Assembly (NCBI RefSeq): GCF_015453285.1
Contig: NZ_JADLZT010000009.1
Location: 1-64,000 of the forward strand
Origin: Lysobacter niastensis
GTDB lineage: Bacteria; Pseudomonadota; Gammaproteobacteria; Xanthomonadales; Xanthomonadaceae
DNA: 64,000 nucleotides
Reading direction: 5' to 3'
The translations under genes and the position numbers were made by a program. The notes below the pieces were generated by a model. It was not told the origin of the DNA and did not search any database. It saw nothing but the letters and a program-made list of their open reading frames with translations. Shown here piece by piece: positions 57,518 through 60,956 of the stretch (its first letter is position 1; each line of letters starts with the position of its first letter).

Positions 57518-58573
57518 TCAGAACGCGTGACTGACGGTGAGGCTGCCAAAGACTGGCGTCTCCTGCTGCCCGTCGAACTCACGCGTGCCGTGGTATCGGG
57601 CTAGCGCGAACTTCCATCGGTGCCGCATTAGCACCACGCCGTATCCGAGGTTCGCGACAACGTGGCGCTTGTCGACGCTGGGACTGTCACGCCAGGTATT
57701 TCCGTCCAGGGTGATGTCCAGGAGTACCCAGCGCGTATCAAAAGTCACGAACAGATGCGCGCCGGGTACGTACTGACTCCGCGCATCGCGCGTCGGTGCC
57801 GTGTTTTCGCCGGCTGGACGCATCGGAGTGCTTCCGAAGTCGTCCGGAAGGTTCACGCCGAAGCGGAACTCCGCGCCGGTATTGAGGTAGGTCGCCAGGT
57901 TGCCAAAGCTACCGCCGTAGTGGGCGATGGTGTCCCATCCCCAGCCTCCTACGCCGTTATCGGTGGAGAAGCGGCGCATGCGTTCGTGGACGAGGCGGAA
58001 GACCAACTCGTTCTCCAGCTGGTTGCCCCAGCCCCGGAACTTGTCTGCACCAATGAGCTGATGCACGCCGTTCTGGGCTTGCTTGCCCATCGCCGCCGGC
58101 CCGACGATGCCGACCTGCAGCTGCGTGGTGCGCAGCTGGTCGCCTTCGCGTGCGTTGTAGCCAGATCCCATCACCAACACGCCGGCATACGGGCGGTCAT
58201 CTTCTATCAGTTCGCTGCGACTGAAGTCGGTCGGCGTGTAGATCCTATGCGTTAAGGTCGAGATCATGTTGAGCTGGTCGAACGATTTCGGATGCAACAC
58301 GCCCAGGTAGCGGTTCGCCAACTTGGCGAGGCGCGGGATGCAAGGATCGTCTGTGTAGTCGCGCAGGTTGGGCGATACCAGCGTCAGCTGCACGCCATTG
58401 GTATAGCCCTGGTCCTGCCCGCCGGCCATGTCATTGTCGACACGAAGGTTGATGATCGGACGAGGGCGACCGCTGGTGCACGCTTCGCGCCCTTGCGCCT
58501 GGGCAGGTAAGAAAAGACAAAGCGAGAGCGCAGCGGCTGTCTGCAGCCACTTGGCGACGGGATCAGAATGCAT
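57518..58573 (-). CDS. Lipid A 3'-O-deacylase LpxR family
   Basis: The 351-residue outer-membrane protein has a signal peptide (about 1-26), the LpxR start 'NLRVDNDMAGGQDQGYTNGV' with the Asn-Asp active-site pair, and a beta-barrel ending in 'GSLTVSHAF'. LpxR (DUF2219) removes the 3'-acyl chains of lipid A at the outer leaflet. The gene is monocistronic. A role in envelope remodelling is family knowledge. Confidence 0.9.
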   Translation of the reverse strand: MHSDPVAKWLQTAAALSLCLFLPAQAQGREACTSGRPRPIINLRVDNDMAGGQDQGYTNGVQLTLVSPNLRDYTDDPCIPRLAKLANRYLGVLHPKSFDQLNMISTLTHRIYTPTDFSRSELIEDDRPYAGVLVMGSGYNAREGDQLRTTQLQVGIVGPAAMGKQAQNGVHQLIGADKFRGWGNQLENELVFRLVHERMRRFSTDNGVGGWGWDTIAHYGGSFGNLATYLNTGAEFRFGVNLPDDFGSTPMRPAGENTAPTRDARSQYVPGAHLFVTFDTRWVLLDITLDGNTWRDSPSVDKRHVVANLGYGVVLMRHRWKFALARYHGTREFDGQQETPVFGSLTVSHAF

Positions 58574-59089: not shown

Positions 59090-59713
59090 ATGGCTACAGA
59101 CAACATCACGACAGCGCCGGAGCATGTGAGCAGGCGGAATGAGATCGTGCAAAACGTGGCAGACGCGCTTCGGGACAGCCACGGCGCAACAAGCATTGGT
59201 GCACTCCTTGCGAGCGCCTCTGTTTCACGGGAGGAAGTCGAACGCGAACTCGGAAGCAACGAGGCGCTCATATCCGCCGTCGCGGAGACCATCGCGCAGC
59301 GGCTCATGGTGCCCCTCACCGAGCCTCCGACCGAAGCGTCATTCATCCGTCAGCTTGTCGAATTCTCCCGACGCGCGACGCATGAATATTCTGGCCTGCG
59401 GGTGAAGCGTCTCTATCGGATCCTGGTGGCCGATACCACCCACGAGCCCGCGATCAAGGGTGCGGTCTACAGGCACGGACCGGAGCTGGTTCGCAGGGAA
59501 CTGGCCCGCTTTTTCGCATCAGCACAGTCGGCCGGCGTCAGGCTGGGAGTCGACAGCTCTCTGCTTGCCACCTACTTCATGGCGTTTCTGAGGAGCTATT
59601 GGGACCTCTCGGACATGTCAGGAGCGACAACTGGTGCCCCCAGCGATCACGAAATCGGCAAGCTCGTCGAGGTGTTCTTTTCAGGTGTTCAGGCGGAGAC
59701 GAAGGATGCTTAG
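59090..59713 (+). CDS. TetR-family transcriptional regulator
   Basis: The 207-residue protein has an N-terminal TetR helix-turn-helix region ('IVQNVADALRDSHGATSIGALLASASVSREEVERELGSNEALISAVAE', about 18-65), more divergent than usual, and a helical C-terminal domain. Its stop overlaps the start of the papain-like/TetR-C fusion gene by eight bases, so the two are expressed together. Ligand unknown. Confidence 0.8.
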   Translation: MATDNITTAPEHVSRRNEIVQNVADALRDSHGATSIGALLASASVSREEVERELGSNEALISAVAETIAQRLMVPLTEPPTEASFIRQLVEFSRRATHEYSGLRVKRLYRILVADTTHEPAIKGAVYRHGPELVRRELARFFASAQSAGVRLGVDSSLLATYFMAFLRSYWDLSDMSGATTGAPSDHEIGKLVEVFFSGVQAETKDA

Positions 59714-60956
59714 GTCCCTCGCCAGGACATTCGCCGACGATTCCGGTCTGTCCGCCATCGGCCGGCCATTCGTGCGCAAGACCGTTCCTATCGCCTGCAC
59801 ACCGAGGACAGAAACGATCGAAACAAACGCCAACGGCTCTCCATTGTCGATTCCACCCGCAACCTGGCTCATCTGTTTCGTGCCGGGATTGCGACATCAA
59901 TGGTGGCACCGGTTCGCCGATACCAGGCACAAACATGTGTTCGCCCTGAGACCGCTCGGCGATGGCACATGGCTATTGGTAGAACCCTGGTGGACGCGAA
60001 TGATGGTGAGCGTGCTGACACTGGACGAAGCCGTGAGATTCCTGCGATGGGGCGCCATGGGCGACATCCTGAGGGTGCGCGAGTCGATTCCGGGGCGCGG
60101 CAGCCAGTTCCGGGGTTGGGCGAACTGCAGCGTGCTCGTGTCGTTCCTGCTCGGTCGGTCCTATTGGACCTGGACACCCAACGGCCTATACCGGAAGCTG
60201 CTGGCAGAACCCGACGTCAAAGCGTTGGACTTGGCCTGCTTCCTGAAGACTCACCTCCTGGAGGAAGTGGGCAAGCACGAAAACGTTGCCCTGAAGGCGA
60301 TCCCGGCACGGCGCCATGAACAGCTCGAGGAAGTGCTGCTCGAGCTTGGGACGGCCCTCGTTACGGCAATGGTGTCCCCCCCTGCCGTCGGGCTGCACAA
60401 GGCCGCAATCTCCGAATGTGTCCGCTTCGATCGCGCTGTCGCTGCCTACTGGGCATCCGGTCCCGAGCGGGCCGCAGCGCGCATCCGGAAAATCTTGCTC
60501 GATGCAAGGCAACGAGGTGAGATCGGCTTCGACGATTGCAGGACCGCCGCGCGTCGGTTCCTGGCCATGCTGCAGGGCAACTTTCACATGGAGATTGTCT
60601 TTGGCCTTCGCGCTGCACCCTGCGCGAAGGAGGTCCGCGACCATGTCACGTTCGCCGTTGCCGTCTTTCTGCGCGGCGCGCATCCGCCAGGCGCGTCCAG
60701 GGAGAACACCACGCGTTGTCGATCGCTCACCGATGGCAACGCAGCACCCGTCGCTCAAGGGCTGATCCGCGAAGTCGGCGAGTCGATTCGTGAGATCGTG
60801 CGCGGCGACGACTGGGAATCGGTGGCGGACTGGGCCGAGACGGTGTGGAGTGACTATGTAGCCTGCACGGGACTCACCTGGGAGCAGGCCTCGGGACGCA
60901 TCCGTCGGGCATGGGAGTCCTGTAGCGCAGCGAGTTCTTGCTCCTCCCCGGGATGA
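59706..60956 (+). CDS. Papain-like domain fused to a TetR C-terminal ligand domain
   Basis: The 416-residue protein has two unrelated parts. Residues about 55-175 ('WLICFVPGLRHQWWHRF', 'RHKHVFALRPLGDGTWLLVEPWW', 'RGWANCSVLVSFLLGR') have a conserved His (about 77) before a Cys (about 140), the order of circularly permuted NlpC/P60-like cysteine hydrolases. Residues about 213-330 ('LGTALVTAMVSPPAVGLHKAAISECVRF', 'GFDDCRTAARRFLAMLQGNF') match the AefR/TetR_C_7 ligand-binding domain, but the helix-turn-helix that should precede it is missing. A further 75-residue helical tail follows. The ATG at 59706 overlaps the upstream TetR stop. A sensor-controlled hydrolase or dominant partner of the upstream TetR is possible; function is inference. 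Confidence 0.7.
   Translation: MLRSLARTFADDSGLSAIGRPFVRKTVPIACTPRTETIETNANGSPLSIPPATWLICFVPGLRHQWWHRFADTRHKHVFALRPLGDGTWLLVEPWWTRMMVSVLTLDEAVRFLRWGAMGDILRVRESIPGRGSQFRGWANCSVLVSFLLGRSYWTWTPNGLYRKLLAEPDVKALDLACFLKTHLLEEVGKHENVALKAIPARRHEQLEEVLLELGTALVTAMVSPPAVGLHKAAISECVRFDRAVAAYWASGPERAAARIRKILLDARQRGEIGFDDCRTAARRFLAMLQGNFHMEIVFGLRAAPCAKEVRDHVTFAVAVFLRGAHPPGASRENTTRCRSLTDGNAAPVAQGLIREVGESIREIVRGDDWESVADWAETVWSDYVACTGLTWEQASGRIRRAWESCSAASSCSSPG

Follow-up and report, generated by a model that had tools for sequence, protein, structure and literature searches.

The window, by which we mean the whole 64 kb stretch of DNA analyzed here, carries on its plus strand two overlapping genes that both encode relatives of TetR proteins. 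The first, TETup (59090..59713, plus strand; 207 aa), has a TetR_C_7 domain without TetR_N. The second (59706..60956, plus strand; 416 aa, ATG start) shares 8 bases with it and encodes a predicted papain-like N-terminal domain, a TetR_C_7 domain and a small C-terminal domain, and is referred to below as the fusion. Upstream of the pair lies a gene for an LpxR-family outer membrane protein (57518-58573, minus strand; Pfam, 1e-96), at a position where several congeners have pump genes.

Architecture of the fusion protein

TetR domains are ligand switches for transcription. A preliminary description of this DNA had claimed that one of them is here joined to another domain without a helix-turn-helix (HTH), and the open reading frame confirms this. 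The TetR_C_7 domain, an AefR-like ligand-binding and dimer domain, occupies residues 209-323 (60330..60674, plus strand) and scored 77.5 bits in Pfam against a cut-off of 22 (E 1e-21), in agreement with the AefR/TetR_C_7 type named earlier; the related TetR_C_11 matched weakly, and no TetR_N was found up to E 10. Residues 1-165 gave no Pfam match up to E 10, and the whole protein gave no match in NCBIfam and one chance-level match in PHROGs. Comparison with phmmer relates the second half of the protein to MexL (8wrf), FrrA (6g87, 6g8h) and CmeR chains. An AlphaFold2 model of residues 30-332, built from a 37-row alignment, reached a pLDDT of 87.5 and a pTM of 0.80; an earlier model from 7 rows was poor (pLDDT 56.7) and was set aside. 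The model superposes on the TetR fold of MexL (VIA Z 19.3, 167 residues, rmsd 3.2), MexL, FrrA, CmeR and NalC are among its best structural matches, and TetR chains fill the matches listed in a PDB fold search with the whole model. The fusion protein therefore has a TetR-type C-terminal ligand and dimer domain, and is without the TetR helix-turn-helix. The small domain that follows (about 60 residues, ~348-408; 60747..60929, plus strand) gives no Pfam match of note. Within the genus it also recurs as stand-alone open reading frames of 73-142 aa, up to several per genome (L019-L027).

The N-terminal domain (residues 38-184; 59817..60257, plus strand) is permuted papain-like according to the model. 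Its mean column identity across 7 congeners is 86%, and its identity to the congeneric proteins (73-84%) is the highest of the fusion's parts. The alignment of this domain holds 31 bacterial rows and six rows from phages or prophages. His77 (codon 59934..59936, plus strand), which begins the second strand in the model, and Cys141 (60126..60128, plus strand), the first residue of a helix, are invariant in all 37 rows. Glu93 (59982..59984, plus strand), on the third strand, is invariant in the 31 bacterial rows and is replaced by Asp in the phage relatives; Cys57 and His68 are likewise invariant across the bacterial rows. His thus precedes Cys with an acidic residue between them, an order that suggests a catalytic role. 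The same order is seen in BcPPNE (3kw0), whose triad is given as His49/Glu64/Cys154, with the Cys opening a helix (PMC3142127); the spacing from His to Glu is 15 residues there and 16 in the fusion.

The domain looks like a permuted papain-like enzyme and probably works like one, but it is not placed in a named family. The permuted NlpC/P60 enzymes (YiiX/C92, LRAT, PPPDE and BcPPNE) have a conserved Tyr, whereas the fusion domain, which is joined to TetR_C, has no Tyr among its invariant columns. Its common Gly-Asp pair, at 119-120, lies away from the position of the GD motif of permuted enzymes, near the first strand. Searches of Pfam and a profile comparison with YiiX of E. coli found nothing to place the domain in C92 by sequence, although remote homologues can escape such searches. 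Because of the lack of a Tyr among the invariant columns and of a Pfam or YiiX match, the domain was not assigned to a family. The earlier proposal of a permuted NlpC/P60-like domain holds in part: the order of His77 and Cys141 and the predicted structure fit a permuted papain-like fold, but NlpC/P60 proper is unsupported by sequence. As had also been supposed, no named family with the architecture of the fusion was found. Among the matches listed from the open-licence PMC literature, the portions available describe neither such an enzyme-TetR fusion nor a TetR-MFS fusion.

Distribution, selection and phage relatives

Full-length homologues are found well beyond the window. A complete fusion is present in 7/12 genomes of the genus, with identities of 56-66% over the alignment; in one of them the small last domain is interrupted by an in-frame stop. 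The N-terminal domain was detected in 9/395 genomes sampled from the family, and in a phylum sample in 8/398 genomes at E 0.01, close in only 2 (E < 1e-74); these sparse matches indicate that it is rare and patchy. A contig search found 32 loci, spread over Lysobacter, Variovorax, Frateuria, Rhodanobacter, Steroidobacter, Bradyrhizobium, an Acidobacteriales MAG and others. The fusion is present at many of these, and at some the N-terminal domain stands by itself or is followed by a CxxC-rich tail. The fusion itself spans about ten genera, including Variovorax, Frateuria, Steroidobacter, Bradyrhizobium, Microvirga and Sphingobium. It is also borne on plasmids in Microvirga, Sphingobium (pCHQ1) and Sphingopyxis, where the annotation reads 'TetR/AcrR family transcriptional regulator C-terminal domain-containing protein'. 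Recurrence in 7/12 congeners and in other genera rules out an assembly join or frameshift between the two halves.

Rates of substitution were compared in four genome pairs. The N-terminal domain shows dN/dS values of 0.097-0.153, TetR_C of 0.151-0.252, the C-terminal domain of 0.093-0.177 and TETup of 0.249-0.448, all of them rough because dS is about 1 or above in most comparisons. In 3/4 pairs, the N-terminal domain has the lowest value of the fusion's three domains. Judged by these ratios, all three domains of the fusion are under purifying selection; values so far under 1 rule out a chance open reading frame.

Some other arrangements were observed in the course of these searches. At L068, L069, G856, G819 and L015, the fusion or its last domain is broken, which points either to a gene that some strains can do without or to sequencing errors. 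The stand-alone papain-like domains of L061, L063, L064 and L066 carry, by eye, a zinc-ribbon-like CxxC...CxxCGR tail, and TetR_C is absent from them. In L066 (3771-5585), from a Verrucomicrobia MAG, an open frame of 604 aa, perhaps a single gene, joins a stretch that by eye resembles alcohol dehydrogenase to the papain-like domain and the CxxC-rich tail.

The N-terminal domain is also related to phage proteins (hhalign probability 86.6, E 4.5e-6, with the His and Cys columns aligned), which were reached through a profile search and an intermediate sequence. When phages were searched by tblastn with the full protein, the matches were chance or TetR ones, apart from two Vibrio phages at E 10 that later proved to be relatives. 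In both Vibrio phages examined, the gene of the relative comes directly after the terminase gene and is separated from the head-tail connector gene by one gene. The phage and prophage relatives differ from the fusion in that they are stand-alone proteins of about 150 aa among head genes, with no TetR domain and with Asp in place of Glu93. Structural matches of the fusion model in BFVD reach a TMt of 0.81, in rows that give no aligned range; they presumably cover the N-terminal domain, to judge by length, since one of them has 152 aa, like the CKB-S2 phage gene. Viral contigs searched with the full fusion protein and with two alignments yielded no relative, and the idea that the fusion is viral cargo was rejected.

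The upstream gene and its link with efflux pumps

The overlap of 8 bases with a complete upstream gene, which had been read as a TetR gene, was confirmed, but its HTH region (residues 16-72; 59135..59305, plus strand) has decayed, as judged by a TetR_N search and comparison of residues. The 27 aligned TETup sequences represent all 30 fusion loci except L056, L060 and L069. They were compared with 12 control TetRs: nine from fusion stretches and one each from a plasmid with a similar pump, the vicinity of L062 and another part of the window's genome. All 27 orthologues match TetR_C_7 and none matches TetR_N (E 1), whereas the full TetR controls match both (12/12). The recognition-helix Tyr that is invariant in the 12 controls is lost in 27/27 TETup sequences, the control-invariant Lys following it in 26/27, the control-invariant Arg preceding it in 25/27, and the Lys before that Arg in 20/27. 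Furthermore, an acidic residue stands beside the lost positions in 23/27, and the mean net charge of that stretch is -1.4 in TETup compared with +2.7 in the controls. With TetR_N absent, the recognition residues lost and the charge reversed, TETup is probably no longer a DNA-binding repressor. The view of it as an ordinary TetR partner had to be given up on these observations and on its fusion to a transporter of the MFS type in part of Bradyrhizobium.

TETup lies directly upstream of the fusion in 30/30 fusion loci, and next to the N-terminal domain alone in 0 of 9 informative loci. The 30 loci include two broken fusion open reading frames (L068, L069) and a locus that shows only the end of TETup (L060), and one genome contributes two of them (L056 and L060); the duplicates L038, L040, L041, L043 and L075 were excluded. 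When mapped on the N-terminal-domain tree, the association of fusion and TETup corresponds to 4 changes on the best tree and 1 on well-supported branches, and a sign test of it was not significant; the TETup labels were assigned by hand, and L063, which is without upstream DNA, was omitted. The tree of TetR_C places the fusion, TETup and full TetRs in separate lineages, bar a few rows. In this tree, the placement of OTHER_L009 (branch 3.84) is untrustworthy, and 3 OTHER rows fall within the unresolved fusion group.

Genes for efflux pumps (HlyD, MFS, outer-membrane-factor or DUF2955/FUSC) were found in 25/30 fusion stretches, with annotated plasmid proteins and the DUF2955 protein of one congener as references. 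Two of these stretches, L049 and L072, are counted on an outer-membrane-factor gene only, which in L072 is about 9 kb away; at L045, the genes form a single run OMF-MFS-HlyD-TETup-fusion. The same search found pump genes at one (L062) of the 9 informative loci where the N-terminal domain stands alone. The stretches without a pump match are L050, L052, the short L037 and L060, and the window, all 64 kb of which gave no match to the reference pump proteins. The window's genome has an HlyD-MFS pair with an ordinary full TetR on another contig and lacks the DUF2955 pump found in congeners; 2/12 congeners have the DUF2955 pump without the fusion. The fusion shares both a TetR_C_7 domain and nearby pumps with TetR repressors of efflux pumps of the AefR/NalC/MexL/FrrA type. 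It differs from them in that an enzyme-like domain replaces the HTH and in that the window's genus adds the small C-terminal domain.

In Bradyrhizobium, the MFS pump and TETup can be encoded by a single open frame of about 754 aa (Pfam MFS_1, TetR_C_7), with TETup attached to the C-terminal end of the pump. This in-frame joining of an MFS protein to an HTH-less TetR was seen at L054 (2623-4887) and at six further Bradyrhizobium loci. Among 195 Bradyrhizobium genomes, this MFS is present in 22 (E 1e-100) and TETup is fused to it in 10, one of them cut by a contig end; in 2 further genomes TETup is a separate open reading frame overlapping the MFS gene. The enzyme-TetR fusion accompanies TETup in or beside the MFS gene in 11/12 genomes, one with a stop, and is found in 0/10 genomes that have the MFS but no TETup there (E 1e-60), counts that are not independent events because the genomes are related. 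G820 has MFS-TETup without the enzyme fusion, and G819 has a broken enzyme fusion and lacks this MFS. The pattern in Bradyrhizobium nevertheless shows TETup to be physically connected with the pump, and the enzyme fusion to be tied to TETup.

Among the full TetRs, the two that were tested show resemblance to NalC, FrrA (flavonoid-responsive) and MexL. In Bradyrhizobium, genistein induces the BjG30 efflux/PHB locus, which is reported to contain HlyD, TetR, acetoacetate decarboxylase and hydroxybutyrate dehydrogenase (PMC4070704). Acetoacetate decarboxylase, patatin and 3-hydroxybutyrate dehydrogenase genes lie near the Microvirga locus, and a reference search found neighbour genes like those of BjG30 near several Bradyrhizobium loci. 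The link is suggestive only, because the BjG30 pump is of another type, RND; the portions of that study available mention no such fusion (PMC4070704).

Possible roles in efflux

The reading that we favour, tentatively and at somewhat short of even chances, is that the fusion and TETup are accessories to efflux, with a TetR ligand and dimer domain that would hold in place, or gate, a cysteine hydrolase or acyltransferase. The overlapping, conserved pair would serve the efflux of toxic compounds, probably plant- or soil-derived aromatics. TETup itself would be a relative of TetR, probably no longer able to bind DNA, that is joined to the MFS pump in part of Bradyrhizobium. The TetR domain of the fusion would bind the pump substrate, pair with TETup, or both, and this binding or pairing may position or gate the His77-Glu93-Cys141 cysteine domain. 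That domain, in turn, would most likely act on the substrate of the pump or on a membrane lipid close by, either hydrolysing it or transferring acyl groups to or from it.

Different models can be proposed in which the pair acts on a repressor. In one, which we consider unlikely, TetR_C of the fusion pairs with a neighbouring full TetR or with TETup, and ligand binding causes the papain-like domain to cleave the repressor and so turn the pump on, like repressor-cleaving protease pairs. Papain-like folds include many peptidases (PMC10318531), and full TetRs with a good HTH occur in 9/30 fusion stretches. In addition, TetR_C of the fusion is nearer to that of full TetRs (mean identities of 27% and 36% for two halves, 10 loci, the window's own full TetR being taken from another contig) than to that of TETup (17% and 24%). 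However, in 21 of the 30 stretches, among them the window, the pair has no full TetR of the control set beside it. A known cleavage site is lacking, and kinship of TetR_C sequences is no proof of pairing.

A second model, held to be just as improbable, needs no catalysis: both HTH-less TetR relatives would bind ligand, or form dead heterodimers with a full repressor, and the papain-like domain would be structural only. The absence or decay of the HTH in both proteins is consistent with this, as is the good preservation of TetR_C and its modelled TetR fold, with MexL among its best matches. A spacer, however, would not require that the N-terminal domain be the part with the highest identity among congeners, or that its His, Glu and Cys be invariant.

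Very unlikely, finally, is an envelope enzyme, a phospholipid or lipid-amide acyl-hydrolase or acyltransferase with a secondary pump link: permuted NlpC/P60 enzymes are lipid-linked or fatty-acid-binding (PMC3142127; PMC7387801), and patatin phospholipases accompany the domain in Rhodanobacter fulvus (on both sides), Frateuria (downstream) and the Microvirga cluster, but these patatins were met incidentally in few loci and the phage relatives are grouped with head genes. The patatin open reading frames flanking or just after the papain-like domain gene were located at L051 (1975-3201 and 5868-7112) and L048 (5885-7204).

Returning to the role as an efflux accessory, two sister proteins have retained a ligand and dimer domain and apparently lost DNA binding, one of them attached to an enzyme-like domain and the other, in some bacteria, to a pump. 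It is conceivable, if rather doubtful, that they represent a new class of chemically gated enzyme with TetR domains used outside transcription, one on a papain-like enzyme and its HTH-dead sister on a transporter, in a complex that senses, modifies and exports toxic compounds at the post-translational level. If so, the same fold that senses drugs for the control of pumps would also act at the pump or on its substrate, and database entries named only as TetR C-terminal-domain proteins would not be the usual regulators. The fusion also offers a bacterial setting in which to study a phage family of papain-like proteins.
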